A program made the translations under genes and the position numbers. A stretch of 64,000 bases of DNA from Aureibaculum flavum (GTDB taxonomy: Bacteria; Bacteroidota; Bacteroidia; Flavobacteriales; Flavobacteriaceae). Under the pieces are notes generated by a model. That model was not told the DNA's origin. It saw only the letters and a list, made by a program, of their open reading frames with translations, and made no database searches. The DNA is taken from positions 1 to 64,000 of the forward strand of contig NZ_JAEHFJ010000010.1 of the NCBI RefSeq assembly GCF_016406085.1, read 5' to 3'. This document shows, piece after piece, positions 3,758-57,216 of this stretch (position 1 is its first letter; each line of letters opens with the position of its first letter).

Positions 3758-4015
3758 AGAAGTAACTAAAGGCTTATTAGAAATCTAAGAACGCATTTCT
3801 TAATTAGAATACCAAAGTTTTAAATACCTAAAACAAATAATAAAATCAATATTTATAAATTGACTTCAATAAAAGTGAGAATAAGGAAAAAGCAGAAATA
3901 CCACGGAAATCCCATTCAATTGAGTGAATTAATCATGTATTTGCATAAATTATCCATACTAAATTGTAAGATTATGGCTACTTTTATACCATATAAAATA
4001 AAAATATTTATCATT

Positions 4016-5392: not shown

Positions 5393-5402
5393 ACCCAACA
5401 AT

Positions 5403-6746: not shown

Positions 6747-6771
6747 ATACATGCTATTTTAATTTTTAATT

Positions 6772-17996: not shown

Positions 17997-19316
17997 ATGA
18001 AAACCTTCATAAACATAACTTTCCACTCTATTATTTTATTAGTATTCTGTCTAATTGGAAAAGTTGCTCTGGCACAAAACCCGATTACAACTTTTAAGGG
18101 TATTTCAGACCCACACATTCGCGTTTTTAATGACACTATTTATCTTTATAGCGGACATGATGCTGCCCCAAATGATAAAACATGGGTGATGAAAGATTGG
18201 CGTGTTTTTGCAACAACAAATCTTTTAGATTGGAAACATTTACAAACTATCACTCCTAAAGATAATTATATGGATGATGGTAGCGAAGATTGTTGGGCTA
18301 GTGATGCCAGTGCGAGAAATGGAAATTACTACTTTTACTTCTCAGACAGAAAACGAGGTATTGGTGTCATGAAATCTAAACATCCAGCCGGAAATTTTAC
18401 AGATGTCTTAAACAAACCTTTAGTTTCTCCCTTGCATGACCCTACTCTATTTACAGATGATGATAAGAACAAAACGCCTTATCTAATTTATGGAGATAAA
18501 ACAGATGCATATTATATTGTTAAGTTAAATAATGATATGATTTCTACGGCAGAAACTCCCAAACCAATAGAAATAAAAGGAGATGCTTGGAAAGATGCAC
18601 CTGAATGGATGGATAAAAACTATCTTTTCAAATATAAAGAATTATACTATCTAAGTTGGGGAAATCAATATGCCATATCCAAGAATATTTATGGTCCTTA
18701 TGAATGTGTTGATGCTGTTGGTAGAGGATATAAGTTGGGTGAATTTGCACATGGTAGTTTTTTTTGGTGGAAAGGTCAGTTTTATCATATTTGGTGTTAT
18801 TACATACGAGATGGATATAAGTTTAGAGAAAGCATTATAAGTTATTGCCATATTGATGATAATGGACAAATAGTTACTGACACCAACTTCTTAGATAAAC
18901 ATTTTAGCAATGGTGTTGGTCAGTATAACGCATCGTGGAAAAAAATTGAAGCAGAATGGTATTATGAAAAATCATCAAATATTAAAAAGCGAGGGCTGAT
19001 GAATAAAGGATTTAGATTGACGAACATAAAAGATGGAAGCTGGATTCGATATGCTGAAATGTTATTCGAAAATGAAAATTATGAATTTCAACTGCAACTA
19101 AATAGTGTTCGGGGCAAAGGCTATTTAGAAATAAGACAAGGTAATTTATCTGGTCAAATTTTAGGAAGAATATCTATTGAATCAGATAATTTACAAAAGA
19201 AATACATCTTAAATAATATCAATTGCTTAAAAGGAAAAACAGATTTGTATTTAACATTTAAGGGAACCGAAGACTTTAATGTGGAATTAGATTATTTTAA
19301 CTTCTTAAGAAAGTAA
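17997..19316 (+). CDS. GH43-type glycoside hydrolase with C-terminal beta-sandwich
   Basis: 439 residues with a signal peptide ending ...KVALAQ. The five-bladed propeller of clan GH-F is suggested by ISDPHIRVFNDTIYLYSGHD (general-base Asp near 38), HDPTLF (Asp near 148) and DAPEWM (general-acid Glu near 203). Residues about 340-439 look like a CBM6-type beta-sandwich (FENENYEFQLQLNSVRGKGYLEIRQG). Typical activities are alpha-L-arabinofuranosidase, beta-xylosidase or exo-galactanase; the subfamily cannot be set by eye. It is the last gene of PUL 1 and its 3' end overlaps that of the opposing symporter gene by 12 bases. Confidence 0.82.
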   Translation: MKTFINITFHSIILLVFCLIGKVALAQNPITTFKGISDPHIRVFNDTIYLYSGHDAAPNDKTWVMKDWRVFATTNLLDWKHLQTITPKDNYMDDGSEDCWASDASARNGNYYFYFSDRKRGIGVMKSKHPAGNFTDVLNKPLVSPLHDPTLFTDDDKNKTPYLIYGDKTDAYYIVKLNNDMISTAETPKPIEIKGDAWKDAPEWMDKNYLFKYKELYYLSWGNQYAISKNIYGPYECVDAVGRGYKLGEFAHGSFFWWKGQFYHIWCYYIRDGYKFRESIISYCHIDDNGQIVTDTNFLDKHFSNGVGQYNASWKKIEAEWYYEKSSNIKKRGLMNKGFRLTNIKDGSWIRYAEMLFENENYEFQLQLNSVRGKGYLEIRQGNLSGQILGRISIESDNLQKKYILNNINCLKGKTDLYLTFKGTEDFNVELDYFNFLRK

Positions 19317-20876
19317 TACATAAATTAGTATTGTTAATGTAACAAGTATAAGTCCTGCCGTTTTTACAGCCGGCCATGATTTTTCATCAGAACCTTTATC
19401 CATATAAGGATGCTCTTCAACGGTTGGAAATAAGTATGAAACTAAAAACATGATGATAAAATTAAGCACAAATTCTATCCCCCAAAGGTGTACAAAATGA
19501 ATGTTTAAATCTAAAATAAATGTGGTTAAAATATAAAAAGTAAATCCAAAAAAGAGTCCCGCCTTAGCCCCTTTCGTATTAATTTGTTTAAAAAAGATAC
19601 CAGCTATAATTATTGAAGAAATGGGAATAAAAAAGATTCCATTTAATTCTTGAAGCAATTGGTACAAACCTTCTGGAGCATAAGCTACCATTGGAGCTAC
19701 ACAGATAGCAATTATGGCTAAAACTACAGAAGACAATTTTCCATATTTCACTAATTTTGCATCTGAGACATTCTTATCTATTATCTTTTTGTAAATATCT
19801 AAGCAGAAAATAGTACTGGCTGAGTTTAAAACACTGTTAAAAGTGCTCAATACTGCTCCTAAAATAACAGCTGCAAAGAACCCATATAAATACGTAGGTA
19901 ACACTTTTTTAACCAACATTGGGTAAATTAAATCAGGGGTTTCATAATATTGATCTTGAAAATAATAGAATGCTATAAGACCTGGTAAAACTATAATCGC
20001 CGGAACAAATAACTTTAAAACTCCTGTATATATCAATCCTTTTTGTGCTTCTACTAAGTTTTTTGCACCAAAAGCCCGTTGAATAATAGCTTGATTCATA
20101 CCCCAGAAATAGAGCTGGTTAATCATTAACCCCGTAAATAATACAGAAAACGGGAGCACGGAATCAGGTTTTCCAATAATATCAAATTTATCAGGTGCAA
20201 AATCATAAACAGTACTTAATCCGGTAAGCATATTACCATCACCAATTTGATAAAGTGCAATCGTTGGTATTAGTAAACCACCAAGCATTAATCCTATACC
20301 ATTTAAACTATCTGAATATGCAATAGCTTTTAAGCCACCAAAAACGGCATAGAAAGCTCCAATAACTCCAATAACCAAAACCGTAAAAATAAGTGAATGC
20401 TGTTTAGAAATGTTGAACATATTTGAGAAATCAAATACACTATCAATATTAATTGCACCAGAATACAATACTATAGGTAATAAGGTGATAACAAATGATG
20501 ACATTAACAAAAAGGCGACTACTGAACGTACAGCTCCATCAAAACGTTTTTCTAAAAACTCGGGTATGGTAAAAATACCCATTTTCATAAATTTAGGAAT
20601 GAAATAAATAGCTGCAATTACTAAAGCTATCGCGGAAGTGACTTCCCATGCAATAATAATGATACCATTTTTATAGGAGCTTCCATTCATACCTATTAAA
20701 TGTTCGGTAGAAATGTTAGTAAGTATCATTGAACCAGCAATAATAGGTCCTGTTAGACTTTTACCTGCTAAAAAATACCCTTTTGAAGTTGTGAATTTAT
20801 CTTTACGAAGTTTAAAAACAGTGTAAAATATTACAAAAAAAGTAAATCCAAAAAAACCCAAATAGGTATAAAACAT
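19305..20876 (-). CDS. Sodium:solute symporter (SSS family), possible inositol importer
   Basis: 523 residues with about 13-14 predicted membrane helices. The SSF signature regions are present (GPIIAGSMILTNISTEHLIGMNG near the first helices; AVFGGLKAIAYSDSLNGIGL in the middle). Its start lies 29 bases after the stop of the myo-inositol oxygenase gene on the same strand, so they form an operon; this suggests that myo-inositol or a similar polyol is the cargo. SSS proteins also carry glucose, galactose and sialic acid, so the substrate remains an inference. Its 3' end runs 12 bases into the opposing GH43 gene. Confidence 0.88.
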   Translation of the reverse strand: MFYTYLGFFGFTFFVIFYTVFKLRKDKFTTSKGYFLAGKSLTGPIIAGSMILTNISTEHLIGMNGSSYKNGIIIIAWEVTSAIALVIAAIYFIPKFMKMGIFTIPEFLEKRFDGAVRSVVAFLLMSSFVITLLPIVLYSGAINIDSVFDFSNMFNISKQHSLIFTVLVIGVIGAFYAVFGGLKAIAYSDSLNGIGLMLGGLLIPTIALYQIGDGNMLTGLSTVYDFAPDKFDIIGKPDSVLPFSVLFTGLMINQLYFWGMNQAIIQRAFGAKNLVEAQKGLIYTGVLKLFVPAIIVLPGLIAFYYFQDQYYETPDLIYPMLVKKVLPTYLYGFFAAVILGAVLSTFNSVLNSASTIFCLDIYKKIIDKNVSDAKLVKYGKLSSVVLAIIAICVAPMVAYAPEGLYQLLQELNGIFFIPISSIIIAGIFFKQINTKGAKAGLFFGFTFYILTTFILDLNIHFVHLWGIEFVLNFIIMFLVSYLFPTVEEHPYMDKGSDEKSWPAVKTAGLILVTLTILIYVLLS

Positions 20877-20905
20877 AGTAAAAGTGTTGATTAGTTAGTT
20901 AGTGA

Positions 20906-21772
20906 TTAAAATTTTAACGAAGATGGTAGGTATTTTGATACTAGCTCTTCATAATAAGGTCTGAGAGCTTTTGCATCTGGTTCTACGGGAGCTTTTGAAT
21001 ACAAATCATAGGGATTAAACTTTTTTACCCATTCAAACATTTCTAGATCCTTTTCATTCATCAAATGCGTATAGGCATTCTCACGATGTTGTGCATAAAA
21101 AGAATGGTATCTAATCATGTATAATGCAGGTTCTGGTAAGTAATTTTTTAATATTTGGTATAAATATTCATCATGACCCCAACTCATTTTCACCTTATCT
21201 AATCCACAATTAGGAGTATAAATTCCATATTTAGTATTATATCGTTCATCTTTAGCGTCTGGGTTCTTCTCAAAAAATTCAGGATATACAATGGTTTCTG
21301 AAAATTTACAACCTACTGGAAAAGTATCACCAACAACTGCCCATTGCGGTTCACCAAAAAGACATAATACCTTACCTAAATCATGAATAAAACCTGTAAG
21401 CACAAACCAATCTGGATGTCCATCTGCTCTTATCGCTTCAGACGTTTGCAATAGATGTTGAAATTGATCTAAATCAATATCAGGATCACTATCATCTACC
21501 AAGGTGTTCAGAAAATCTACGGCATCCCAAAGCGACATTTCTCTTTTATCAAACTTTAAAAATTCATTTTCTTTGTCACACACAAATTGATAAGTTTGAT
21601 TGATATGGTTTACGCGGTAAAACTCCTTTACCGTATCTACGCGTTCAGAATCTATATAATTTCTAAATTCCTCCTTTTCTTTGTTAGTAGCCTTCGGGTT
21701 GGGGTAACGCTCTTTTAAGTTATCTTCCCAATCGTCAATATTATCCATCGGATTATCATTTATCATATCCAT
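20906..21772 (-). CDS. miox: Myo-inositol oxygenase
   Basis: 288 residues, the normal size for the family, cytoplasmic. The HD-domain di-iron ligands are visible in order: [23 protein letters not shown] (HD near 129), MSWGHDEYL and [14 protein letters not shown], together with the family-typical [10 protein letters not shown] and [10 protein letters not shown]. The enzyme opens the myo-inositol ring with O2 to give D-glucuronate. It heads a two-gene operon with the SSS symporter. Glucuronate isomerase and later genes are not in this window. MIOX is best known from eukaryotes, and bacterial copies are comparatively scarce, which makes its place between two PULs notable. Confidence 0.93.
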
Positions 21773-22122: not shown

Positions 22123-25100
22123 ATGGAAAAATTAAAACTCTTACTAATTGTCTTTATGGTAGGTTTTTCAGTTAATACATGGGCCCAAACTACAGTTTCA
22201 GGTACAGTATTAGATGATTTACAAGAACCTTTACCAGGAGCAAGCGTTGTTGTAAAAGGTACAAACAATGGAGTTGTAACCGATTTTGATGGTAAATTCA
22301 CTATTACCGTTAAAAATGAAAATGCTCGTTTATTAATCTCGTTTATAGGTTTTGAAACGAAGGAAATCAGCTTAGATGGATCATCTAATTACACTGTTCA
22401 ATTAGAGGTTGGTGCAAATGCTTTAGACGAAGTAGTTGTCATTGGTTACGGTTCTGTAAAAAAGACTGACTTAACAGGAGCTGTTGCTTCTATTAGTGCA
22501 GCCACAATAACAGAACAGAAAAAAACAGATATCGGTCAAGCAATTCAAGGTAGAATTGCAGGGGTAGATGTTAGAGCGTTAAGTAATAAGCCTGGAGCTC
22601 CACTTTCAATAGATATTAGGGGTAATACCGTAATAAAAAATAATGACGCAGGACGTGATGGAATTAGTGATAATCTTGATAGTGACCTTTCCAAACCACT
22701 TTATGTAGTTGATGGAATATTCTTTGACGACATTAATATTTTAAACCCTGCAGACATCCAACAAATGGATGTATTAAAGGATGCATCAGCAACTGCCATT
22801 TATGGTGCTAGAGGTGCTAATGGTGTTGTTATTATCACTACCAAAAATGGTATTGAAGGAAAAACAGTTTTTAGCTATGAGGCTACTTTAGGGGTGCGTT
22901 CTGCTACTAACATTCCTGATTTTTACAATGGTGATGAATATGTTGGCTTTGTAGATAAGGTATTAAGAAGTACAGCTTGGAAAGGATTATTTAAAAATGG
23001 ATATGAAGGTACTGTGGCTGACTATAATGGCCTAACAGTTGATTTGACGAGAGAATTTAAAAACACCAATGAAGAAGCTGATAATGTAGCCAATCGTCGT
23101 TATACAGACTGGGCTGGTGATTATAGAAAAACAGGCATACAAACAAGTCATAATTTAGCAATGTCTGGTGGTGCAAACGGCCTTACCTATAACGGTTCAA
23201 TTGGATATTTAAATGATGAAGGAGTTATGGGTATTGAAGGTTATGAGCGTTACAATTTAAGTGCTTCTATAACAAAAAAAATTACTGATAAATTTACAGC
23301 GGGTGTAAAAGCTTACTTATCATTGTCTGAACGAGAAGAAGGAAGTAGAGAGTTATTTAGAAGTACACTACGTTTAGCTCCAACAGTTAACTCATTTGAT
23401 CCAGATGGTAATGTTATTTTATTCCCAGATGATCAAGATGGTCGTTTTACCAATCCTTATTATGAAGATAAAGGTGCTTGGAAAGTGAATACAAAATCTT
23501 TAGATGTGATTGCTAATGTGTTTTTACAATATAAGCCTACAGAATGGATGAGCTTTAAAACGCAATTTGCTCCAAATATTAAGAACTCTAGATTTGGTGA
23601 ATATAGAGGTTTATATACAAAAGCGGCACGGAATGACCCTTCAAGAATCCAATCACATTATGATGCTTCTTTTAAAACATCTTATACTTGGGATAATATT
23701 ATAGATTTTGATTTTGATATTACAGATACCCAAAACTTAAAGGCTACTTTAATTTCTTCGGTTTATTATAATCAAAGTGAATACAGTAATATTGAGACAC
23801 GGAATTTTGATACAGACGCGTATTCATTTTACAATACTTCTGCAGGTCTAGATGTTAGAGCTTATAAAACAAATTATAGAAAAGAAACTTTATCTTCCTT
23901 TGCGGGTCGTTTAAATTACAATATTTTAGATAAGTATTTATTTACATTCACAGGTAGGTATGACGGATCTTCTAAATTAGCGGTAAATAACAAATGGGCA
24001 TTCTTTCCTTCTGCAGCATTTGCATGGAAAGCCAGTGAAGAAGATTTTTTACAAGATACAAGTTGGTTAAGTAATTTAAAATTCCGTTTAAGTTATGGTG
24101 AATCAGGTAATGATAGTCCGGTTAGTGCTTACAGTTCTTTAGCCTTTTTAGGTGGTGCTGATTATCTTTTCGGAGATACACATACTAATGGTGTAGATGT
24201 AAATGGATTACCTAATTATGATTTAACTTGGGAACGTTCTAAAGAAGTTAACTTTGGTATCGATCTAGGAATTATAAATAATAGAGTGCGTTTAGGTTTA
24301 GAGCTTTATAGAAAAAAAACAGTAGATGCAATTCTTAGTAGAACTTTATCAAATATTACTGGTTATGGATCGGCAATTGGAAATTATGGTTCTGTAGAGA
24401 ATAAGGGTATTGAAATCACTTTAAATACTGTAAATGTTCAAACGGATAATTTCAAATGGTCTACAAGTTTAAATTTTGCTAAGAATAAAAACTCAATTTT
24501 AAAATTGGATGGTTCATTAGATAAAGAGACTTATGGATCACATGGTGTACTTCAAGTAGGTCAACCAGTTGATGCAATTTATGGCTACAAAAACGATGGC
24601 ATATGGCAAATAGACGAAGCGGCTGAAGCTGCAGTTTACGGAGCCTTCCCTGGACAATATAAAGTAATAGATCAAGATAATAGTGGCACTTATGGGGCGG
24701 AAGATAAAGTTGTCTTGGGTCAAGTTTCTCCAGATTGGATTGGAGGTATGACAAATACTTTTACATATAAGAATTTAGATTTATCAATTCAAATATATAC
24801 AAGACAAGGATCTTACGGTCATTCAGAGTTTTATTCGCACTTTACTCCTTATAACGGTGATGATGCTAAATTTAATAGTCTGGATATGAATTTTTGGACA
24901 CCAAATAATCCAGATGCCAAGTATCCTGCTCCAGAATATGGCAATACAAATTGGTATTATGAAGATTTAAGTTTTGTGAAAGTGGGTAACATTGGTTTAG
25001 GCTATAATGCATCACAAGGTGTATTAGATAAATTAAAAATGGCTAGTTTAAGATTGTCTTTAGATGTACAAAATCCATTTACATTTACGGGTTACAAAGG

Positions 25101-25188
25101 ACCTGACCCTGAAACTGCATTACAAAACTCTTATAATGCGGGTTACATGACAAAAACAGTATTATTCGGACTTAAGGTATCATATTAA
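22123..25188 (+). CDS. susC: SusC-family TonB-dependent outer-membrane transporter (PUL 2)
   Basis: 1021 residues with a clean signal peptide ending ...SVNTWAQ. The carboxypeptidase-like domain (TTVSGTVLDDLQEPLPGAS), the segment DEVVVIGYGSVKKTDLTG and the plug end (ATAIYGARGANGVVIITTK) are all present, and the barrel ends ...GLKVSY. It differs from the PUL 1 SusC in length, signal and plug loops, so it probably imports a different oligosaccharide. It is the first gene of the co-directional run ending at 50183. Confidence 0.95.
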   Translation: MEKLKLLLIVFMVGFSVNTWAQTTVSGTVLDDLQEPLPGASVVVKGTNNGVVTDFDGKFTITVKNENARLLISFIGFETKEISLDGSSNYTVQLEVGANALDEVVVIGYGSVKKTDLTGAVASISAATITEQKKTDIGQAIQGRIAGVDVRALSNKPGAPLSIDIRGNTVIKNNDAGRDGISDNLDSDLSKPLYVVDGIFFDDINILNPADIQQMDVLKDASATAIYGARGANGVVIITTKNGIEGKTVFSYEATLGVRSATNIPDFYNGDEYVGFVDKVLRSTAWKGLFKNGYEGTVADYNGLTVDLTREFKNTNEEADNVANRRYTDWAGDYRKTGIQTSHNLAMSGGANGLTYNGSIGYLNDEGVMGIEGYERYNLSASITKKITDKFTAGVKAYLSLSEREEGSRELFRSTLRLAPTVNSFDPDGNVILFPDDQDGRFTNPYYEDKGAWKVNTKSLDVIANVFLQYKPTEWMSFKTQFAPNIKNSRFGEYRGLYTKAARNDPSRIQSHYDASFKTSYTWDNIIDFDFDITDTQNLKATLISSVYYNQSEYSNIETRNFDTDAYSFYNTSAGLDVRAYKTNYRKETLSSFAGRLNYNILDKYLFTFTGRYDGSSKLAVNNKWAFFPSAAFAWKASEEDFLQDTSWLSNLKFRLSYGESGNDSPVSAYSSLAFLGGADYLFGDTHTNGVDVNGLPNYDLTWERSKEVNFGIDLGIINNRVRLGLELYRKKTVDAILSRTLSNITGYGSAIGNYGSVENKGIEITLNTVNVQTDNFKWSTSLNFAKNKNSILKLDGSLDKETYGSHGVLQVGQPVDAIYGYKNDGIWQIDEAAEAAVYGAFPGQYKVIDQDNSGTYGAEDKVVLGQVSPDWIGGMTNTFTYKNLDLSIQIYTRQGSYGHSEFYSHFTPYNGDDAKFNSLDMNFWTPNNPDAKYPAPEYGNTNWYYEDLSFVKVGNIGLGYNASQGVLDKLKMASLRLSLDVQNPFTFTGYKGPDPETALQNSYNAGYMTKTVLFGLKVSY

Positions 25189-25207: not shown

Positions 25208-26851
25208 ATGAAAAAAATAAAAAATATAAATCAGATTATCGTCTTACTTGGTATTACACTATTATTTAGTGCCTGTAACAAGTATATAGAAGAAGATATT
25301 TATAGCGGTATTACAAGTGAGAACTTTATTGATGAAAATACCGCAGATCAATTAGTTGTAGGTCTATATGGAAATGTAAGAGGTGCTTTTCTAAATAGTG
25401 GTTACAAATATTTAGGAACCGATGTTTTCACCACACAATTAGAAATTTTTAACACTTCTAGTGAAAATGATTATGTCAGTTTTAATGCCTCACAAACCAA
25501 CGGTATTTGGAATGCTAATTATGGTATAATTTCAAAGGCGAACACGGCTTTAAACAGATTTGAAAATGAAATTAACTGGAGTTCTGGTAAATTAGCTGAT
25601 AAGACCTATGGGTTAGCTCAAATAAGAGCTTTGAGAGCTGTTGCCTTTTTTAATTTGGTACAACAATTTGGAGGTGTAGTTCTAGATTTAGAAGAACCTC
25701 AAAGTATTCGTAATGACTACACACGTTCTTCAGAGCAAGAAACATATACTTTAATTATTAGTGAGTTAGAAGCTGTTATTCCAGATTTAAAAGCTGATCC
25801 TGAAACAGGTAGATTTTCTAAACGTGCCGCACAACATGTATTGGCAGAAGTATATTTAACAAGAGCTTATAAAGATTATGGACAAAGCACTGATTTTCAA
25901 ACTGCAGCCGATTTAGCTGTACAAGCCATTGATGGTTATGACATTAGAAGTCAATCTTTTGCTGAAGTTTTTGCTTATGACAATCAAGTGAATGACGAAA
26001 TTCTTTTTGCTGGACAATATGGAGATACTGGTTTTTCAGAAGACAATGGCAATAACATGCACTCTTTTGGTATGTATCAAGTATTTAATTTACCTGGTGT
26101 AAGTAGAAAAAACCCTTATGGTGTTAAACTTAGCAATACAATGCCCACTCCTTACTTTTACTCTTTATTTACCGATAACGATTCTAGAGAAGATGTAACT
26201 ATTCATAGAACAATAATAGCAGACGAAGAAAGTGGATTAGGTACTGATATAATTAATCCAGGTGATACTATTATCTATTTTCCGAAATATGCATTGAATG
26301 AAACAGAACTTAAAGATAAGTTAGATCGTTATTGGGTATATCAACCAGATCAATATTTATTTGGTAGACCTGATGATATTGATGGAGTAGTTTATAAGTA
26401 TTCGTTAAATCCAGAGTTTATTAGTTTTCCAATATTAAAGAAATTTGATGATGAAATTTTTGAAGAAAGTGGTAGTGGTGCTCGTGACAATTTCATTTAT
26501 AGAATAGCTGGTACCCATTTAATGGCAGCAGAAGCTTTTTTAGGTGCTGGTAATACTGCACAGGCTTTATTTCATTTAAATAGAGTTAGAGAACGAGCAA
26601 CGGGTGTTGCTGATTATTACACCTCTATTGATTTAGATGATATTCTTGTTGAAAGAGCATTAGAGCTAATAGGTGAAGAAAATAGATGGACTGTTTTAAA
26701 ACGTATGGGGAAATTAGAGGAAAGATTAATATATAATCCTCATTATGTAGATCACGGTGCGTTTGATGCTTCTAAACATTTATTGCGTCCTATCCCTGTA
26801 AAAGAGATTGAGATTTCTCCAGAAACCATGACACAAAATCCTGGTTACTAA
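25208..26851 (+). CDS. susD: SusD-family glycan-binding lipoprotein (PUL 2)
   Basis: 547 residues. The lipoprotein signal reads ITLLFSACNKYIEEDIY. Family segments include NFIDENTADQLVVGLYG, QIRALRAVAFFNLVQQFGG and the C-terminal VERALELIGEENRWTVLKRMG. It begins 19 bases after the SusC stop and acts as the substrate-capturing lid of that transporter. A strong hairpin lies between it and the enzyme genes. Confidence 0.95.
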   Translation: MKKIKNINQIIVLLGITLLFSACNKYIEEDIYSGITSENFIDENTADQLVVGLYGNVRGAFLNSGYKYLGTDVFTTQLEIFNTSSENDYVSFNASQTNGIWNANYGIISKANTALNRFENEINWSSGKLADKTYGLAQIRALRAVAFFNLVQQFGGVVLDLEEPQSIRNDYTRSSEQETYTLIISELEAVIPDLKADPETGRFSKRAAQHVLAEVYLTRAYKDYGQSTDFQTAADLAVQAIDGYDIRSQSFAEVFAYDNQVNDEILFAGQYGDTGFSEDNGNNMHSFGMYQVFNLPGVSRKNPYGVKLSNTMPTPYFYSLFTDNDSREDVTIHRTIIADEESGLGTDIINPGDTIIYFPKYALNETELKDKLDRYWVYQPDQYLFGRPDDIDGVVYKYSLNPEFISFPILKKFDDEIFEESGSGARDNFIYRIAGTHLMAAEAFLGAGNTAQALFHLNRVRERATGVADYYTSIDLDDILVERALELIGEENRWTVLKRMGKLEERLIYNPHYVDHGAFDASKHLLRPIPVKEIEISPETMTQNPGY

Positions 26852-26950: not shown

Positions 26951-29014
26951 ATGGCAAAAATCATACGTCATAGGGTAATCTTTTTTTATACAATTTTAAG
27001 CATCAGCTTATTAATATCATGTAAGCCAGACGTTGCCAAAAACCATACTATTTATTTAATCTATGGTGAAAATGCTTCAGAATTAGAATTAAATGCTATA
27101 AACGATTTAAAAGTAGATTTAACTAAAATCAGTGATACTGATATTCATATAATTTCAGAAAATAAAGAGACACCTTCTCAGGGTATATTCTTTGTACTTG
27201 GCACTCCAACATCAAGTACTTTAATCTCAAAAATGGCAACCAATGATGGATTAGCTATTAGTGTAATTCAACCTGGACCAAGGGGTGGTATTTGGGCTAA
27301 AAAAGAAATAAAAAACAACATACAAGCTATTGTAATAGCAGGTTCTGATGTACAAGGTATGCAATATGCCATCTATGATTACTCTAAGGAAATTCTAGGT
27401 GTAGATGCATTAGAATATTGGACAGGTACACAGCCAAATAAAAATAAGAAAATAAACTTTTTTGATTTTGAAGAAAGAACTATTTCCCCACCACAAATAC
27501 CAATATTAGGTTATTTTGAAAATGATGTCGATGAATTGGCAAATTACCGTGGTAAGTTATTAGAATATGATTGGGAAAGTTATACCGAACTAATAAATTC
27601 TTTAGTTAGAATGCGTTATAATGCCATTCAACTTTTTGACATGTTGGGTCGTCCTGAATTTTTTACCAGACCTGAATATAAAAAATTAAATCCAGATTAT
27701 AAACTTCGCGTTTCTTATGTTGATAGTTTGATAAACTATGCACATGAAAAAGGGATGATGGTTCAAATTGACATTAGCTTAGGTTATAAAATAAAACCAT
27801 TAGATCAAAATAAAGCGGACTGTTGGACAGATTACAAACAAGATTGGATAGATACATGGACCTACTATTTTGAGGAAACACCCTTTGCAAAAGCTGATAT
27901 TTTCTCATTACGCCCCAGAAATCAAGTATGGGATTGGGAATATAAAAGTTCTTGTGGTGAAGATAAAACAGAGGTATTTAATGAAGTATATCAAGTTTTA
28001 GGTGACTTAATTGATAAACACAATCCGAATGCTAAAAAAGTATTGGTCTGTTATGCGGATGGAATGGAAATGTTTAATAACAATTTCAGTCCTCCTAAAG
28101 ATTGGTTAGTAGCATGGTCAGATGATGGATTTAGCGGTTTTAAGCATCTACCTGAAAGTACAAAAGGTTATGATTTCGGAACCTATATGCATGCCGGATT
28201 TTGGCTTAACCATACCGTACATGACCCCTACCCTAATAAAATAGATACCATAATGAAAAGTATGGTAAGAAAATATAAAGCTGACAAATATTGTTTGGTT
28301 AATGGGCAAACATTTCGTCCCTTTCTTTTAAATATGGAAGCCTTCTCTGAGTTATCAAAAAATGTTGAAGCCTTTGATGGTGATACCTTTTATAAAGAAT
28401 GGACACAAAGATATTTTAATAATGAAGCTGCTGACTTTGCTATTAAATCAATGAAAAAGTTACATGAAGCACAATTAAATAGAGGCGGTTACGTAGAACA
28501 TTTATGGGAAATTAGAGAAACAGTGTCTTACTTGAGTAATTCACCAATTAGACGGCCTGGTAAAACACCAGTGCCTTTTAATTACGAGGCTGTTGCTGAA
28601 AATTATGAGCATATCGATAAACGTTTAACGTTGGCAAAAGAGTCACTAGACTTTGCAACTAAAGGACTACAATTTGTATCTGAAGGCGACAATTTTTATA
28701 ACGATTATATCGTACTTCCAATTCATCTTTATTTGGATTTAATAGATTTTGAAAATTGTTTACATAGGATGTCGAAATTTAAAAGGGCATTTGAAGAAAC
28801 AAATGATAACAGTGAATTAGCTAAGGCTATTCAATTATTAGACGAAGCCCATAAGAAATTAGACATCATTCTTAAAAGAAGTTTGGAAGGCGACAAGAAT
28901 AAAAAATGGAAAAATTGGTATAATCCAGAAATCAGAAGGCCAAATAATGGATTTCCATCCAAAGAAATGCTTGAAGCCATTCATACCAATTTGATGAAAA
29001 TAAAAAGTAATTAA
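26951..29014 (+). CDS. GH115-like lipoprotein, short and with a divergent active-site region
   Basis: 687 residues with a lipoprotein signal (ISLLISCKPD). The order of segments follows GH115 alpha-glucuronidases: an N-terminal domain ending AIVIAGSDVQGMQYAIYDYS (compare IGSDRRATAFGLLELS in the GH115 at 41238), then a barrel with RMRYNAIQLFD, WLVAWSDDGFSGF and YMHAGFWLNHTVHD, matching LVWTDDNYGYM and YYHTSYWGRPHD in the full-length enzyme. It lacks the roughly 300-residue C-terminal region of normal GH115. Where the full-length enzyme has VGMRGEHDSP, this protein reads SLRPRNQVWDWEY, so catalytic residues may differ. It could be a distinct hydrolase family. It lies first among the PUL 2 enzymes. 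Confidence 0.6.
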   Translation: MAKIIRHRVIFFYTILSISLLISCKPDVAKNHTIYLIYGENASELELNAINDLKVDLTKISDTDIHIISENKETPSQGIFFVLGTPTSSTLISKMATNDGLAISVIQPGPRGGIWAKKEIKNNIQAIVIAGSDVQGMQYAIYDYSKEILGVDALEYWTGTQPNKNKKINFFDFEERTISPPQIPILGYFENDVDELANYRGKLLEYDWESYTELINSLVRMRYNAIQLFDMLGRPEFFTRPEYKKLNPDYKLRVSYVDSLINYAHEKGMMVQIDISLGYKIKPLDQNKADCWTDYKQDWIDTWTYYFEETPFAKADIFSLRPRNQVWDWEYKSSCGEDKTEVFNEVYQVLGDLIDKHNPNAKKVLVCYADGMEMFNNNFSPPKDWLVAWSDDGFSGFKHLPESTKGYDFGTYMHAGFWLNHTVHDPYPNKIDTIMKSMVRKYKADKYCLVNGQTFRPFLLNMEAFSELSKNVEAFDGDTFYKEWTQRYFNNEAADFAIKSMKKLHEAQLNRGGYVEHLWEIRETVSYLSNSPIRRPGKTPVPFNYEAVAENYEHIDKRLTLAKESLDFATKGLQFVSEGDNFYNDYIVLPIHLYLDLIDFENCLHRMSKFKRAFEETNDNSELAKAIQLLDEAHKKLDIILKRSLEGDKNKKWKNWYNPEIRRPNNGFPSKEMLEAIHTNLMKIKSN

Positions 29015-29098: not shown

Positions 29099-29127
29099 GA
29101 CCATTGAAAAATAATAACCATAAACAC

Positions 29128-31461
29128 ATGAAAATAAAAAATATTTTAACCTTAGGGTTCTTAATACTTAGCATCCTTTCTATTACGTTTCTTTCTTGTA
29201 AAAATGAAGGAGAAAAAGAAGCACAAAATACTTCAGAAGTAGAAGTATATTTGACTGATAAAGTGTACCCTATTTTAGATACAGAAAATTCTAGATGGTT
29301 TTTCTTTACATCAGCAAGCCGACCGTTTGGAATGGTAAATTTAAGTCCTGATACTGAAATTAATGGTGCCTGGGGAAGTGGATATCGATATGCCATTGAT
29401 ACTATAAAAGGATTTAGCCATATTCATGCTTGGCAAATTTCAGGTCTCTCCGTAATGCCTGTAACACTTTCTGAGGAAAATAATAAAACAATTTTTACCG
29501 ATTTCTATTCAAAATTTAGTCACCAAAACGAAGTGATTAAACCAGGATATCATAAGGTTAAACTTGAAAGATATGGTATCAATGCTGAGTTAACAAGCAC
29601 AAAGCGTGTTGGCTTTCATAAATATGCATTTCCGAAAGAAAAAAATTCGGGTATTTTATTCAATCTGAATACTGTATTGGGTCCTTGTGAAAATATTAAT
29701 GGTGAGTTAGAAAAAATAGGTGATAAAGAATTTTCTGGAAAGCTTATTGCAGCCGCTACACATCGCAGGCCAAAACCCTTAACCATATACTTTAAAGTTG
29801 AGCTTAATCGAGCTTTCAAATCCATTGAACATGATGATGAAACTGGTAATTATTTAATCCGGTTTGATGCTTCAGAAGAACCTATTTTAATGAAAACGGG
29901 TATATCATATACTTCAATTGAAAATGCTTCGAATAATATAGCCTCAGAGTTACCTAAATGGAATTTTGATAAAATTGTAAAAGATTCTCATAATGAATGG
30001 GAAGGTTTATTAGGTCGAATTAAGGTCAAAGGAGGAACGGATCAAGAACAAAGACGTTTTTATACTGATCTTTGGCATGCTTTACAAGGCAGAAGGATAA
30101 TTAGTGATGTAAATGGTGCCTATCCAGATAATACAGGAGCTACTTTTAAATTAGGTCAGCTTCCGTTAAATAAAGATGGAAAACCAAAATTTAATCATTT
30201 TAATTCAGACTCTTTTTGGGGTGCACAATGGACCATTAATACGTTATGGGGACTCGTTTATCCAGAAATAAAAGAAGAATTTGTACAATCACTTTTACAA
30301 TATGAAAAAGATGGAGGTTTAATTCCAAGAGGCCCATCTGGTGGTAATTATACCTATGTAATGACAGGTGCTTCGAGTACACCATTTATAGTAAGTGCAA
30401 TTCAGCAAGGTATAATTAAGGAAGATTTAGAAACTATATACCTAGCACTTAAAAAGAATCATATGCCAGGTGGCATAATGGAAAAAGCAGGATACGAACA
30501 TAAAACAAATCTTGGTGGTGGTTTAACGTATTATATCGATAAGGGATACGTACCCTACCCTATTCCTGAAGGAAAATTTGGAGGTCATCAAGATGGTGCA
30601 AGCCTTACTATGGAATATGCTTATCAAGATTGGACCTTAGCTCAATTAGCAAAAAAACTGGGACATCAAGAAGATTATGATTATTTCTTGAATAGGTCAA
30701 AAAATTATTCAAATGTATTTGATGCTGAAACGGGCTGGATGCGACCAAAAAATGTGAATGGTATATGGAAAAATGATTTTGATCCCTATCAAGTAGAAAA
30801 TGGTTTTATAGAATCAAACGGTGCACAATCTACATGGTTTGTACCTCATGATTTAAAAGGGTTAGCTAACTTAATGGGTGGAGATGAAAAAGCTATTGAA
30901 AAACTAAACAATCAATTCAAAACAGCTGAAAAATTGAATTTTACAGCAGGTAATTCACATTCTCAAGAATTACATCCAGAATATAGGCGGATTCCAATAA
31001 ATTATGGAAACCAGCCTTCTATTCAGACTGCTTATATATTTAACAAATTGGGGCGTCCAGATTTAACTCAATATTGGTCTAGAAAAATTGTAGATAAAGC
31101 TTTTGGAGGTTTGGCACCCTCAACAGGATATAATGGAGATGAAGATCAAGGATTAATGGGCAGTCTAGCCGTGTTAATGAAGATTGGTTTGTTTCAAATG
31201 AATGGTGGAACGGATAGTGATTCAGAATATCAGATAGGAAGTCCTATTTTTGATGAAATAACGATTAAATTAAATCCTGATTATTATTCAGACAGTACCT
31301 TTACAATAAAAACAATAAATAATGGTCCAACCAATACCCTAGTCAATAAGGTTATGTTGAATAATAAGCCAGTTGAAAACTATAAATTAATTCATAGCGA
31401 CGTTATTAAGGGAGGAACATTAATTTTAGAAATGACAAGTGAAGAAACTTTAAAAAATTAA
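29128..31461 (+). CDS. GH92-family glycoside hydrolase, lipoprotein
   Basis: 777 residues from the ATG at 29128; a TTG 24 bases upstream in frame is less likely. The lipoprotein signal is SITFLSCKNEGEKE. GH92 hallmarks: SRPFGMVNLSPDT, GFSHIHAWQISGLSVMPV, FYTDLWHALQGRR, GYNGDEDQGLMGSLAVLMKIGLF and the C-terminal sandwich LNNKPVENYKLIHSDVIKGGTL. The usual Gly/His-rich N-terminal GTGGH-type stretch is replaced by NSRWFFFTSASRPFGM, so this is an atypical branch. Characterised GH92 enzymes are calcium-dependent exo-alpha-mannosidases; whether this branch acts on mannose is open. Confidence 0.82.
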   Translation: MKIKNILTLGFLILSILSITFLSCKNEGEKEAQNTSEVEVYLTDKVYPILDTENSRWFFFTSASRPFGMVNLSPDTEINGAWGSGYRYAIDTIKGFSHIHAWQISGLSVMPVTLSEENNKTIFTDFYSKFSHQNEVIKPGYHKVKLERYGINAELTSTKRVGFHKYAFPKEKNSGILFNLNTVLGPCENINGELEKIGDKEFSGKLIAAATHRRPKPLTIYFKVELNRAFKSIEHDDETGNYLIRFDASEEPILMKTGISYTSIENASNNIASELPKWNFDKIVKDSHNEWEGLLGRIKVKGGTDQEQRRFYTDLWHALQGRRIISDVNGAYPDNTGATFKLGQLPLNKDGKPKFNHFNSDSFWGAQWTINTLWGLVYPEIKEEFVQSLLQYEKDGGLIPRGPSGGNYTYVMTGASSTPFIVSAIQQGIIKEDLETIYLALKKNHMPGGIMEKAGYEHKTNLGGGLTYYIDKGYVPYPIPEGKFGGHQDGASLTMEYAYQDWTLAQLAKKLGHQEDYDYFLNRSKNYSNVFDAETGWMRPKNVNGIWKNDFDPYQVENGFIESNGAQSTWFVPHDLKGLANLMGGDEKAIEKLNNQFKTAEKLNFTAGNSHSQELHPEYRRIPINYGNQPSIQTAYIFNKLGRPDLTQYWSRKIVDKAFGGLAPSTGYNGDEDQGLMGSLAVLMKIGLFQMNGGTDSDSEYQIGSPIFDEITIKLNPDYYSDSTFTIKTINNGPTNTLVNKVMLNNKPVENYKLIHSDVIKGGTLILEMTSEETLKN

Positions 31462-40166: not shown

Positions 40167-41236
40167 TGAAAAATTATTCAACATATTATTTGCCCTTCGT
40201 TCTGGTTTTTATATTTATTTTAATCAACGATAGTAATGCTCAACATTTAAATGACATTCAAGTAATTGGCAGTCATAACTCCTATAAAATTCCTATTGAA
40301 AAACCTTTGTTTGATTATTTAGAAAAAATAGATTCAAAGAAAATGAAAGGCTTGCAATATGGACATATATCATTAATAAAGCAATTAGATTTAGGTTTAA
40401 GGAATCTAGAATTAGATGTTTTTTATGACCCAAAAGGCGGATACTTTTCAAACCCTAAAGGATTAGATATTGTGAAATTAGCTGGACAAGAACCGTTGCC
40501 TTTTGATAGTGAGGAGAAACTAAAATTACCTGGCTTAAAAATGTTTCATATCCAAGATATCGATTTTAGAAGTCATCATTTACTTTTCACAGAAGGTTTA
40601 AAAGCACTAAAAAAATGGTCTGAAGAGCACCCCGACCACTACCCTATAATTATTTTAATGAACACAAAAGATCAAAAAGTTGATCAAACTAGAAACCCAT
40701 TACCATTTGATAAAAACGCACTGAATAGTATAGATAAAGAAATTAAAAGTGTTTTTTCTAATACCAAATTAATCACACCTGATGATGTACGTGGAAACTT
40801 TAAAACATTAGAGAAGGCTATTTTAAAATTGGGTTGGCCAGAACTAAATACTTTAAAAGGAAAGTTTTTATTTGTACTAGATGAAAAAGAAGAAAGAATC
40901 AATAGCTATTTGGACGGACACCCTTCTTTAAAAGGCAGAGTACTTTTTGTAAATAGCAAAGAAGGCAACCCTGAAGCTGCTTTTAGAATTATTAACGATC
41001 CAATTCAAAATTTCAATTATATCAAAGAGTTAGTTTCCAAAGGTTATATGGTAAGAACACGAGCAGATGCAGGAACGAAGGAAGCAAGAAATAGTAGTTA
41101 TTTACGATTTGAAAAGGCTAAAGCATCTGGTGCACAAGTAATCTCTACAGATTATTACATACCCTCTACTTTGTTTAAATCTGATTTTAAAGTAATATTT
41201 GATGATGATAGTTATGAAAGAATTAAAAAGAATTAA
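40166..41236 (+). CDS. PI-PLC-like, Ca2+-dependent phosphoinositide phospholipase C type protein
   Basis: 356 residues from a GTG that overlaps the preceding stop by one base, giving a signal peptide (YYLPFVLVFIFILINDSNAQ). The X-domain signature is that of calcium-dependent phospholipases C: GSHNSY with His near 37, RNLELDVFYD with Glu and Asp near 82-84, and MFHIQDIDF with the second His near 127. In mammalian PLC-delta the equivalent HN, ELD and second His carry catalysis and calcium binding. It has no PH, EF-hand or C2 domain. Predicted action is cleavage of inositol phospholipid or a related phosphodiester outside the cytoplasm. Its position in a glycan locus is unexpected. Confidence 0.82.
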   Translation: MKNYSTYYLPFVLVFIFILINDSNAQHLNDIQVIGSHNSYKIPIEKPLFDYLEKIDSKKMKGLQYGHISLIKQLDLGLRNLELDVFYDPKGGYFSNPKGLDIVKLAGQEPLPFDSEEKLKLPGLKMFHIQDIDFRSHHLLFTEGLKALKKWSEEHPDHYPIIILMNTKDQKVDQTRNPLPFDKNALNSIDKEIKSVFSNTKLITPDDVRGNFKTLEKAILKLGWPELNTLKGKFLFVLDEKEERINSYLDGHPSLKGRVLFVNSKEGNPEAAFRIINDPIQNFNYIKELVSKGYMVRTRADAGTKEARNSSYLRFEKAKASGAQVISTDYYIPSTLFKSDFKVIFDDDSYERIKKN

Positions 41237-41237
41237 G

Positions 41238-44198
41238 ATGTTTAGAAACAAATATTATTTGAAATTTGTACTTCTTGGTTTTTTGTTTTGTTTACAACTT
41301 AATGCACAAACTGCAATTAACTTTCCCTTAATTTCAGATGAAAATAATGCCACATTACGCATTGACAAACGAGATGCCAAAGTAGTATCTATTGCTGCAG
41401 AAATGTTAATAGATGACATTTTTAAAGTAACTCAAAAAAAACTAGTAACTGATACTAAAAATAATCCTTATCAAATAATCGCAGGCACCTTAGGACAAAG
41501 TAAACTTATAGATCAGTTCGTTTCAAAACATAAGATTGATGTCTCAAAAGTTTCTGGGAAATGGGAAACCTATACTATTCAAGTCATTGAGAATCCTTCA
41601 AAAGAAATTAAAAAAGCATTAGTTATTATAGGTTCTGATCGAAGAGCTACGGCTTTTGGATTACTAGAATTATCTAGAATGATTGGTGTTTCTCCATGGG
41701 AATGGTGGGCAGATGCTGTCCCTACTAAAAAAGAAGAATTAGTTATTCCAATAGTCACTACAACTTACGGTTCACCATCGGTAAAATATCGTGGTATCTT
41801 TTTAAATGATGAAGATTGGGGATTACAACGTTGGGCAGCTTTAAATTTTGAGCCTGAAACCGGTGATATTGGGCCTAAAACATATGCTAAAGTATTTGAA
41901 TTACTATTGCGTTTACGAGCCAATACTATTTGGCCCGCCATGCATAAATGTACCAAAGCATTTTACCATTATCCTAAAAACAAGGAAGTAGCTGATGATT
42001 ATGCCATTGTTATCGGGAGTTCGCATGCAGAACCCATGTTGTGCAACATTAATGCAGAATGGAATCACGAAAGTATGGGAGAATATCGATATGATACTAA
42101 TGCCGAAGTCATAAAGGATTTATTTAAAAAACGAGCTAAAGAAACTCAAAATTTTGATGGAATTTACACTGTTGGTATGCGTGGAGAGCATGATTCACCT
42201 ATGATTGTTGGTGAAGATAATACGGACGCTCAGGTTTCTTTATTAGAACAAGTAATTGCTGACCAAAGAGCTATTCTTAACAAATATTCTAAAAATGGTG
42301 TTGATAAACCCCAAGCGTTCGTGCCTTACAAAGAAGTATTACATTATTACCAAAGTGGATTAAAATTACCAGAAGATATAACCCTAGTTTGGACAGACGA
42401 TAATTATGGATATATGCGTCAGTTAAGTAATCCTGATGAACAATCGCGTTCAGGTGGAGCCGGTGTTTATTATCACACTTCGTATTGGGGAAGACCACAT
42501 GATTATTTATGGTTAAACTCTACAAACCCTGTTTTAATGTGGGAAGAAATGTCTAAAGCCTATGAGTTTAAATCGCAAGATTTATGGATACTAAATTGTG
42601 GAGATATTAAGCCACATGAATACAGTATCGAATTATTTTTAGATATGGCTTGGAATATGAATGATTTCAAAAAAAATAAAGATATCAGTAAACATCAAAC
42701 AAGCTGGGCTTCAAGAGAATTTGGTGCTGAAAATGCAACAAGCATTTCCAATTTAATGCATTCATACTATACGTTGGCGTTTAAAAGACGGCCAGAGTTT
42801 ATGGCATGGAGTCAAGTAGAACCCGTTACAAAGTCAAATCCAACAGAATTTACACAATACCATTATGGAGATGAAGTGTCTCAACGAATTGGTGCCTATC
42901 AGAATTTAATTAATGATGTTACCACACTAAAATCTAAAATTTCTAAAGAGGATCAAGATGCCTTTTATCAATTAATTTACTACCCTGTTATTGGTGCGGC
43001 AAACTTGAATCACAAATGGTTATATGCCTACAAAAACAAATTCTTAGCATCACAAGGAAGACAAAGTGCACTCTATTTTGCAGAAAAATCAGCCCTAGCT
43101 TATGAATCCATAATAGAAGAAACCACCTATTTTAATAAGACATTGAAGAATGGAAAATGGGATCATATTATGAGTATGGCTCCAAGGCATTTACCTGTAT
43201 TCTCTAAACCCTCCTACGCTGCTCCTACTCAAAACAATATTCCAGAATTAGGTTTGGCTTTAGAAAGTTACCAAATGGAAGCAAACAATTCAGTTATAAA
43301 TAGTTATGCTGATGTACTTCCTGTTTTTAATTCATATACTAAAAATAGTTATTTCCTAGATATTTTTCTAAAAGGCAATGGAGAATTGATATGGGAAGCT
43401 AAGCCTAAAGCAGACTGGATTAAGATTAGTAAAGTAGAAGGAAAACTTAATAAAAACAATCTTGAAGAACGACTTTGGGTAACCATAGATTGGGATAAAG
43501 TACCAAAAGGTGAAGCAAAAAAAGAAGCTCCTTTAGGCCATGATTATCAGTTAATTCCACCAAGTTACAAAGTCAATTCTGCTATAGATTTAATATCAAA
43601 TGATACCGTGATTACCATTGGAGTATCCGTATTTAATCCGAAACTAGAGGTGTTAAATACTTATAAAGGTTTCATTGAAGACAAAGGTTTTGTATCTATA
43701 AATGCCGAAAATTATTCACGTAAAACTGATGGAAATGAAGCTAAATGGGAAATTTATAGTGGACTAGGATATTCTGATAATGTTAGTGTTGCATTACCTA
43801 GAACAGCAAAGTCACAAATTACAATAGAAAATATAGTGAAAAATAGTCCTGTTTTAGAATATGATTTTTATACCTTTAATTTTGGTGATGTTAATGTAAA
43901 TATACAAGCGGTACCCACTCATGCTTTTTTTAAAGATAGAGGTGTTAGGTGTGCCGTTTCTATTGATAATGCTGAGCCAGTACTACTCGATTTTCAAACG
44001 TTTGGTCGAAGTGAAAATTGGAAAAAAAATGTATTAAAAAATGCCACAATTCAAGTTGGAAAACAAGTTGTAAATAAGGCAGGAAAACATACACTAAAAA
44101 TTTGGATGGTAGATCCAGGTGTAATGATTGATCAAATTCTTATTGATTTAGGAGGTTGGAAAAATTCATATGCCTTTCCTCAAGAAACTAAAATGTAA
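41238..44198 (+). CDS. GH115 alpha-glucuronidase
   Basis: 986 residues from the ATG at 41238, one base after the previous stop; a longer TTG-initiated reading overlaps the PI-PLC gene and pushes the signal (LGFLFCLQLNAQ) inwards. GH115 segments in order: N-terminal GH20b-like domain (VIIGSDRRATAFGLLELSRM), WEWWADAVP, KYRGIFLNDEDWGLQRWA, RLRANTIWPAMH, VGMRGEHDSP, LVWTDDNYGYM, ILNCGDIKPHEY, then C-terminal beta-sandwich regions. Family members release 1,2-linked alpha-D-glucuronic acid, also from internal positions of xylan or arabinogalactan. It supplies glucuronate and is the full-length counterpart of the short GH115-like protein at 26951. Confidence 0.92.
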   Translation: MFRNKYYLKFVLLGFLFCLQLNAQTAINFPLISDENNATLRIDKRDAKVVSIAAEMLIDDIFKVTQKKLVTDTKNNPYQIIAGTLGQSKLIDQFVSKHKIDVSKVSGKWETYTIQVIENPSKEIKKALVIIGSDRRATAFGLLELSRMIGVSPWEWWADAVPTKKEELVIPIVTTTYGSPSVKYRGIFLNDEDWGLQRWAALNFEPETGDIGPKTYAKVFELLLRLRANTIWPAMHKCTKAFYHYPKNKEVADDYAIVIGSSHAEPMLCNINAEWNHESMGEYRYDTNAEVIKDLFKKRAKETQNFDGIYTVGMRGEHDSPMIVGEDNTDAQVSLLEQVIADQRAILNKYSKNGVDKPQAFVPYKEVLHYYQSGLKLPEDITLVWTDDNYGYMRQLSNPDEQSRSGGAGVYYHTSYWGRPHDYLWLNSTNPVLMWEEMSKAYEFKSQDLWILNCGDIKPHEYSIELFLDMAWNMNDFKKNKDISKHQTSWASREFGAENATSISNLMHSYYTLAFKRRPEFMAWSQVEPVTKSNPTEFTQYHYGDEVSQRIGAYQNLINDVTTLKSKISKEDQDAFYQLIYYPVIGAANLNHKWLYAYKNKFLASQGRQSALYFAEKSALAYESIIEETTYFNKTLKNGKWDHIMSMAPRHLPVFSKPSYAAPTQNNIPELGLALESYQMEANNSVINSYADVLPVFNSYTKNSYFLDIFLKGNGELIWEAKPKADWIKISKVEGKLNKNNLEERLWVTIDWDKVPKGEAKKEAPLGHDYQLIPPSYKVNSAIDLISNDTVITIGVSVFNPKLEVLNTYKGFIEDKGFVSINAENYSRKTDGNEAKWEIYSGLGYSDNVSVALPRTAKSQITIENIVKNSPVLEYDFYTFNFGDVNVNIQAVPTHAFFKDRGVRCAVSIDNAEPVLLDFQTFGRSENWKKNVLKNATIQVGKQVVNKAGKHTLKIWMVDPGVMIDQILIDLGGWKNSYAFPQETKM

Positions 44199-44210: not shown

Positions 44211-46094
<1,884 letters not shown>

Positions 46095-46139
46095 GATCGA
46101 AGTATATATTCAATTTAAGTGGGAAATTTTTTAAACTTT

Positions 46140-51615: not shown

Positions 51616-51639
51616 TGTTTTATATTGTAATTAGTATTT

Positions 51640-51685
51640 AAAAAGGTTTTCCATTTGATTATGATGAAAAATCAAATGAAAAACC
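51640..51685 (-). terminator. Terminator-like hairpin between fucI and fucK
   Basis: On the minus strand GGTTTTTCATTTGATT pairs with AATCAAATGGAAAACC (one mismatch over 16 bases) and is followed by TTTTT. It lies between the fucI stop and the fucK start, so it may partly end transcription or stabilise the upstream fucI message. Confidence 0.75.
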
Positions 51686-51769
51686 AATTCTAATTATAAA
51701 AAGAGTATAGTAATTCTAACTCAAACACTTATGAAAAACTTCTTTTTATAATAAACTTAACTCAACTTT

Positions 51770-53554: not shown

Positions 53555-53574
53555 GATTTATAATGTTTTTATAA

Positions 53575-54369: not shown

Positions 54370-54435
54370 AATATGTATCTTATTTTATATTACAAAAATA
54401 CTCTCATATCAAGTTCAACAAATATGTAAAATCCG

Positions 54436-54443
54436 TATTTTTG
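54436..54443 (+). promoter_or_regulatory. Bacteroidota -7 element upstream of the AraC regulator
   Basis: TATTTTTG matches the TAnnTTTG consensus for the primary sigma factor of Bacteroidota. It lies 25 bases before the AraC start codon in the 99-base divergent gap. No good TTTG -33 element is seen, so expression may depend on an activator. Confidence 0.45.
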
Positions 54444-54468
54444 TGTCTAATTCAAACATTACACCTAA

Positions 54469-55368: not shown

Positions 55369-55671
55369 TTCATTTTATAATATACTGGTTAACGGATTGT
55401 TGATAGTAAAAAACATCGCAAATCTAATTTTATATACATCTAGAAAAAAATTGATTTTTTAGCATTGTATTATTTTATGTTTAAATTGTACATATTTTTG
55501 ATTAATACAGATAAACACTACGCTAGTTAAATAAATTATGTTTGCTTATATCGTAATAAAGTTTTATTTCTAACTAATTTTCTTTTGACACTTTTTAAAT
55601 GCAAAAGAAATTAATCTTATTATTTGACTTTCAATAAATTTTAATTTAACTAATCTTAAATAACAGAAAAA
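55369..55671. promoter_or_regulatory. 303-base gap before aldA with a candidate promoter
   Basis: No gene is seen. TATTTTTG at 55493-55500 fits the TAnnTTTG -7 element and would give a 5' leader of about 165 bases before aldA. The remainder is AT-rich with no clear riboswitch-like structure by eye. The long leader may contain regulatory structure that folding software would be needed to detect. Confidence 0.4.
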
Positions 55672-57111: not shown

Positions 57112-57131
57112 AATATTTAATAAATAACAAT

Positions 57132-57186: not shown

Positions 57187-57216
57187 TACTTTAGCATTAA
57201 CATTAACAAGTTTACA

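Follow-up and report, generated by a model that had tools for sequence, protein, structure and literature searches.

GH115 is, by the titles of the matched PDB entries, a family of alpha-1,2-glucuronidases. The characterised enzymes have four or five domains, according to the part of PMC13059095 that was available. In BoAgu115A, as described in the accessible sections of PMC3879575, D206 is the proposed catalytic acid, the D332A mutation abolishes activity, and the R328A, H422A, Y420A and E375A mutations decrease it by 10^3 to 10^5 fold. The same sections assign the binding of the carboxylate to Y420 and H422, make W245 part of a hydrophobic channel proposed for the 4-O-methyl group, and state that the C-terminal domain helps shape the cleft for xylan, a polymer. 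The numbering of M327, R328 and D332 was checked here against entry 4c90.

In plant membranes, GIPCs rank among the most abundant sphingolipids. The head group of the plant series A GIPCs is Hex-GlcA-inositol-phosphate in the available parts of PMC11496612 and PMC9113257, and the reference list of PMC11496612 contains a title on alpha-D-Man-(1->4)-alpha-D-GlcA-(1->2)-myo-inositol from rose cells. Neither an enzyme for the alpha-glucuronosyl-inositol bond nor a bacterial locus which consumes GIPCs was found in the literature searched, including searches for GIPC together with PUL.

A rare family on the GH115 fold

The window (the whole stretch of 64,000 nucleotides from Aureibaculum flavum that was analysed) contains the gene under study at 26951..29014 on the + strand. 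It starts with ATG and encodes a GH115-like protein of 687 residues, recognised from the open reading frame, a Pfam match and the matches of its structural model. The gene directly follows a SusC/SusD pair, in keeping with an earlier reading of the DNA (the sequence-only reading) which had placed it first among the enzymes of the PUL. That reading also described a lipoprotein. Sequence inspection and a pattern search indeed find a lipobox, L-I-S-C, with Cys24 as the predicted lipidated residue (27011..27022, + strand), and the simple lipobox pattern occurs in 32 of 51 family sequences.

A true full-length GH115 of 999 residues, with a catalytic domain and a GH115_C domain (Pfam), is encoded 14 kb downstream (41199..44198, + strand); its closest solved relative is BtGH115A. 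The short protein has 312 residues fewer, close to the deficit of about 300 at the C-terminus noticed earlier. The two proteins are homologous (BLASTP E 5e-17, identity about 21%). The profile search which the sequence-only reading had proposed gives a two-sided answer: the 687-residue protein matches PF15979 (Glyco_hydro_115) with 60.9 bits (E 2e-16), above the curated cut-off of 27, but its score is about a seventh of that reached by the downstream enzyme, and the C-terminal domain is missing. Pfam gives no other family for this protein at the limit used, and no NCBIfam profile matches it.

Scanning genome contigs yielded 72 loci of the family. The carriers, most of them marine, are mainly Flavobacteriia (Maribacter, Zobellia, Arenibacter, Cellulophaga, Algibacter and others), together with other Bacteroidota including Chitinophaga, one Puniceicoccaceae (Verrucomicrobiota) and several Gammaproteobacteria. 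The family alignment has 51 rows. One is the window protein, and the other 50 are genes drawn from 49 of the 72 loci after removal of near-duplicates and fragments. All 51 sequences match PF15979 at E <= 0.001, and PF17829 (GH115_C) is absent among the families listed for them. Members share 41-91% identity with the window protein, and the next matches, which are true GH115, are near 22%. The 17 members sampled for a tree cluster in a single clade (support 98/99), whose stem measures 5.4 changes per column; the faulty row L100 is included in that tree.

The PF15979 match above the cut-off speaks for a merely divergent ordinary GH115, active on glucuronoxylan or arabinogalactan and redundant with the full-length enzyme; a Maribacter GH115 has been linked to arabinogalactan in the part of PMC11036162 that was available. 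We consider this explanation unlikely. Among the PF15979 matches in 296 Bacteroidota genomes, nearly all score 410-534 bits and two score 191 and 152, whereas the family scores 53-55. The long stem, the lack of GH115_C and the replacement of two tryptophans, W245 (by Q, H or E) and W249 (by L), also argue against it, as does the fact that no GH10 or GH11 endoxylanase profile is found among the window proteins scanned. The short protein thus belongs to a real and conserved family on the GH115 fold, discrete and well separated from GH115 proper; the idea of a distinct family, already put forward from the sequence, holds given the identity gap (41% vs 22%), the clade of its own and the long stem.

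The family is rare. Pattern-independent profile searches, limited to scoring two or three candidates in each genome, found it in three of 395 Bacteroidota genomes and in one of 369 gammaproteobacterial genomes, and this last genome is the one on which the search was centred. Nothing was found in the viral contigs scanned. A search of plasmids returned six records, one of them with a close member (Catenovulum adriaticum pCadTS8_2, 42.9% identity over query residues 5-397 only). This copy (L118, 9001-10570) is truncated or broken and is annotated as hypothetical proteins. Elsewhere, a GH115-like gene of another divergent branch (L116, 936-3058, genome G018) is split into two overlapping frames.

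Three domains and a rewritten loop

An AlphaFold2 model built from the 51-row alignment has a mean pLDDT of 90.2 and a pTM of 0.88. The top eleven chains retrieved with Foldseek are all GH115. With VIA-align, seven GH115 entries match model residues 29-687 with Z of 26.0-27.3 (570-581 residues aligned, rmsd 3.6-4.6), and beyond GH115 the scores are 19.9 for GH84, 19.7 for GH67 (1k9e), 19.6 for GH89 and 19.2 for GH138. The modelled protein is a three-domain GH115 fold, consisting of an N-terminal domain, a TIM barrel and a helical domain. The structure match stops close to residue 671 of the 4c90 chain, which has 822 residues, and the missing part is therefore the C-terminal beta-sandwich. Its absence is easier to reconcile with a small head group than with a polymer.

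The active site was compared in a multi-family L-INS-i alignment which includes intermediate GH115-like proteins, 17 sampled members and 17 sampled GH115 (every second of 36 sequences; L100, in a wrong reading frame, was dropped, which left 17). The positions of the six functional residues of BoAgu115A are occupied in each of the 17 sampled members, and the residues themselves (D206, R328, D332, E375, Y420 and H422) are present in 17 of 17 sampled GH115. From the multi-family and 51-row alignments, the counterparts on the + strand are D192 for the proposed acid D206 (27524..27526), D370 for E375 (28058..28060) and Y412-M-H414 for Y420/H422 (28184..28192), which bind the carboxylate according to the available part of PMC3879575. 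R323 (codon 27917-27919, + strand) and D328 (codon 27932-27934, + strand), assigned from the multi-family alignment, would correspond to R328 and D332. The six residues are invariant in 51 of 51 family sequences, Asp370 standing throughout at the E375 position, so that the Glu itself is not kept. The invariance of D192 is partly by construction, as this residue sits in the search pattern YFENDVD (50 of 51 rows). That of D328 is not built in, because 19 rows lack the second search pattern and all of them keep D328.

R323 and D328 lie in the loop SLRPRNQVWDWEY (residues 319-331; 27905..27943, + strand; both alignments), which takes the place of the GH115 segment VGMRGEHD. The replacement of VGMRGEHDSP had been noticed before and stands. 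The loop seems to have been rebuilt around an Arg/Asp pair that is kept, with one residue inserted, a register which comes from one multi-family alignment and is not certain. Indeed, pairwise MAFFT and hhalign give other registers, which leave R323 unpaired with R328 and set the GH115 MRG opposite a gap or other residues. The R323/D328 register is favoured by the model, in which strand 317-320 ends just ahead of R321, and by two intermediate proteins (L114 and L115) which share the pattern of a strand followed by R-x-x-x-D. The reading in which the catalytic residues are lost was rejected on the basis of the multi-family alignment, the pairwise reading having compared loops of unequal length.

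Beyond W245 and W249, the family also differs from BoAgu115A in having Gly at D424. BtGH115A, which is a characterised enzyme by its PDB title, deviates at two of these positions as well (His at W249, Ser at D424). As judged from the alignment, the loss of W245 suggests a uronosyl group that is unmethylated or differs in some other way. The loop is rewritten, yet a dead site is not indicated by the sequences.

A non-catalytic binding protein, which was one of the roles suggested from the sequence, would be consistent with a probable lipoprotein adjoining SusD and with the altered loop. It is very improbable, since the proposed acid, the base-side Arg/Asp, the second carboxylate and the Tyr/His clamp are invariant in 51 of 51 sequences, along with many further polar residues across the family. 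For the same reason, the claim of different catalytic residues finds no support: all six mapped functional positions are filled. The family is most likely active, and most probably an alpha-glucuronidase. The different linkage proposed earlier is plausible, and the GH115 barrel may be reusable with a rewritten catalytic loop.

The locus and its inositol genes

Upstream of the gene lie a SusC-like TonB-dependent transporter (22123..25188, + strand) and a SusD-like lipoprotein (25208..26851, + strand), both recognised by reading the sequence, not by profile, and kept in place in 51 and 43 of the 72 loci, respectively. After the short GH115-like gene, the + strand carries a GH92, three GH29, a GH3, an esterase, a PI-PLC-C1, the GH115, a metallophosphoesterase and a regulator. 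The GH92 (29104..31461, + strand, Pfam), of the alpha-mannosidase family, is the most conserved neighbour (GH92-like in 57 of 72 loci). The PI-PLC-C1 (40166..41236, + strand, Pfam E 6e-127) belongs to the Ca2+-dependent phosphoinositide phospholipases C. The metallophosphoesterase (44211..46094, + strand, Pfam) occurs in 12 of 72 loci, and also in Catenovulum loci, and the hybrid two-component regulator of the locus (46119..50183, + strand, Pfam) in 28 of 72.

On the other strand lie a myo-inositol oxygenase, MIOX (20906..21772, - strand, profile E 1.5e-112), and an adjoining sodium:solute symporter (19305..20876, - strand, profile match), for which inositol uptake is a proposed role. MIOX makes D-glucuronate from inositol. 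The symporter/MIOX pair (19305-21772) diverges from the SusC gene and is central to the substrate proposal. These inositol genes, the main clue to the substrate, were overlooked in the sequence-only reading.

Other parts of the window deserve a mention. Two very similar GH29 genes of 470 residues (35410-36822 and 37083-38495) stand in tandem, apparently after a recent duplication. A fucose isomerase, a class II aldolase, an FGGY kinase, an aldehyde dehydrogenase and an MFS transporter (50305-58515) form a probable fucose catabolic cluster adjoining the GH29 genes. At 3860-7971, a 3-keto-disaccharide hydrolase, also seen in 23 of 72 loci, and two GFO/IDH/MocA oxidoreductases are a possible oxidative route of glycoside cleavage. 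UxaC (uronate isomerase) and UxuA (mannonate dehydratase) are adjacent in the A. flavum genome.

The neighbours in the 72 loci were labelled by their best BLAST match to the window proteins, within flanks of at most 10 kb. By this count the family itself is labelled in 70 loci, GH92-like in 57, SusC in 51, SusD in 43, the regulator in 28, PI-PLC and GH29 in 27 each, a true GH115 in 13, and MIOX and metallophosphoesterase in 12 each. The minimal recurring unit is SusC-SusD-short GH115-like gene-GH92-regulator. In the smallest loci (Arenibacter and some Zobellia), only SusC/D, GH92 and the regulator stand beside the gene.

MIOX is present in 38 of the 49 carrier genomes searched; in 31 it lies no more than 20 kb from the gene. 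PI-PLC-C1 is present in 30 of the 49, in 26 of them within about 10 kb. One or the other lies within 25 kb of the gene in 32 of the 49; nine have neither anywhere. Among 149 relatives, MIOX above 300 bits is found in five of five carriers and in seven of 144 non-carriers (Fisher 1.4e-6), and PI-PLC-C1 in three of five and eight of 144, counts which share ancestry and are not phylogenetically independent trials.

The association extends to distant carriers. Catenovulum adriaticum, a gammaproteobacterium from algae, has its truncated copy among GH92, GH28, MIOX, metallophosphoesterase and PI-PLC. In another Catenovulum (L073) the copy is intact, with MIOX adjoining and PI-PLC and phosphoesterase upstream. 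The verrucomicrobial locus includes GH92, GH28 and MIOX. In Rheinheimera, the next gene codes for a protein of a phosphatase family that has a jacalin-like lectin domain. L010, L011, L035 and L075 have UxuA close to the short GH115-like gene, and in L062 and L071 GH67 comes directly after it. Some loci have a sulfatase, and GH28 or GH67 is present in some cases.

Two non-carriers (G060 and G077) have a locus with GH92, GH115, PI-PLC, phosphoesterase and MIOX, but no short GH115-like gene. A GH28 beside the GH92 was considered as its substitute there, and dismissed since GH28 also adjoins the short GH115-like gene in other loci.

In five loci (L018, L019, L020, L022 and L025), PI-PLC-C1 is fused to a BD-FAE-like esterase (612-618 residues); in the window the two are separate neighbouring genes. 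Three neighbours have no Pfam match: L066 13636-15801 (721 residues), L014 12063-13697 (544 residues) and L026 14502-16199 (565 residues), the last two being mutual relatives.

Proposed function and comparison with known systems

We tentatively propose, and would put it at slightly short of an even chance, that the short protein is an active alpha-glucuronidase with an inverting mechanism, that it represents a new branch of the GH115 superfamily with three domains, and that it cleaves the GlcA-alpha-inositol bond of mannosyl-glucuronosyl-inositol lipids. From the computed homology, fold, residue conservation and gene linkage, we infer catalysis, linkage, substrate, order of steps and cellular location as follows. 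SusC/D would import a mannosyl-glucuronosyl-inositol (phospho)glycan and GH92 would remove the alpha-mannose. The short enzyme would then split GlcA-alpha-inositol, with D192 as putative acid, R323, D328 and D370 as base-side machinery, and Y412 and H414 holding the carboxylate. PI-PLC and the metallophosphoesterase would free the inositol, the symporter would import it and MIOX would convert it into D-glucuronate. Both halves, GlcA and inositol, would thus reach hexuronate catabolism, because MIOX turns inositol into D-glucuronate.

Among known glycans, the one that matches is Man-alpha-1,4-GlcA-alpha-1,2-inositol, of the series A GIPC head group type. Together, GH92, a GH115-type alpha-glucuronidase, PI-PLC, a phosphatase and MIOX would dismantle this head group, and the specificity of the family is plausibly for glucuronosyl-inositol. 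It is possible, though we lean against it, that this GH family for the alpha-glucuronosyl-inositol bond is the core of a bacterial locus for consuming glycosylated sphingolipids of the inositol type, either plant GIPCs or their algal counterpart. As part of the same reading, and to be held just as cautiously, such a family would be borne by marine Bacteroidota, Chitinophagaceae and Gammaproteobacteria. The available part of one review (PMC9113257) calls the addition of GlcA to inositol phosphoceramide plant-specific, while most carriers are marine, and no GlcA-bearing inositol lipid is documented for marine settings in the literature found. The GH29, GH3 and esterases, sometimes GH28 or GH67, and the true GH115 in 13 of 72 loci suggest a target more complex than a simple head group. 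The nine carriers of 49 without MIOX and PI-PLC also count against the inositol reading, as do the smallest loci of Arenibacter and some Zobellia.

These observations bear on a further explanation, which we regard as possible with some doubt. An alpha-glucuronidase or other alpha-uronidase of the same branch would have as its substrate an algal polysaccharide or a glycoprotein glycan that bears uronic acid (and is fucosylated, mannosylated, xylosylated), and MIOX and PI-PLC would be nearby because the regulon also gathers inositol from dying algae. The operon of the short gene, which combines three GH29, a GH3 with PA14, a BD-FAE/SASA esterase and a true GH115, supports it, as do the fucose catabolism genes that come next at 50305-58515, the sulfatase of some loci and the nine carriers without either inositol gene. 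On the contrary, GH92, MIOX, PI-PLC and phosphoesterase, not fucosidases, are the genes that recur in different phyla. Moreover, G060 and G077 keep MIOX, PI-PLC, GH92 and GH115 together without the short gene, and the inositol genes therefore belong to the locus. If the proposal of a GlcA-alpha-inositol alpha-glucuronidase is true, it names the enzyme and the partners which remove the glucuronosyl-inositol core of GIPCs, for which the literature searches found no bacterial route, and it offers a tool for cutting GIPC head groups. Membrane glycolipids would then be added to the food sources of Bacteroidota that are regarded as polysaccharide eaters.

The breakdown of plant GIPC by a fungal GIPC phospholipase C (PMC11496612) shares with this proposal the substrate core Hex-GlcA-inositol-phosphate and a phospholipase step. 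It differs in that the enzyme is fungal and that no glycosidase step is seen in the available part of that paper.

GH67 alpha-glucuronidases have a related fold (Z 19.7 for 1k9e), clearly more distant than GH115. Two of the 51 family sequences also touch the GH67 N-terminal profile, and in L062 and L071 the GH67 is a separate neighbouring gene.

The GH115-like branches L114 and L115 match PF15979 with 191 and 152 bits and keep the D, R, D, E, Y and H positions. They group with GH115 and not with the short family (support 89/88, with long branches).

GH115 alpha-glucuronidases (BoAgu115A 4c90, BtGH115A 5by3, SdeAgu115A 4zmh and AxyAgu115A 6nps) are alike in the first three domains, with Z of 26-27, and in the multi-family alignment the short protein has counterparts of D206, R328, D332, E375 (as D), Y420 and H422. 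In contrast, identity is about 14-22%, the C-terminal beta-sandwich is absent, the loop is rewritten around R323/D328, W245 and W249 are replaced, E375 becomes D370, and the genomic setting differs.
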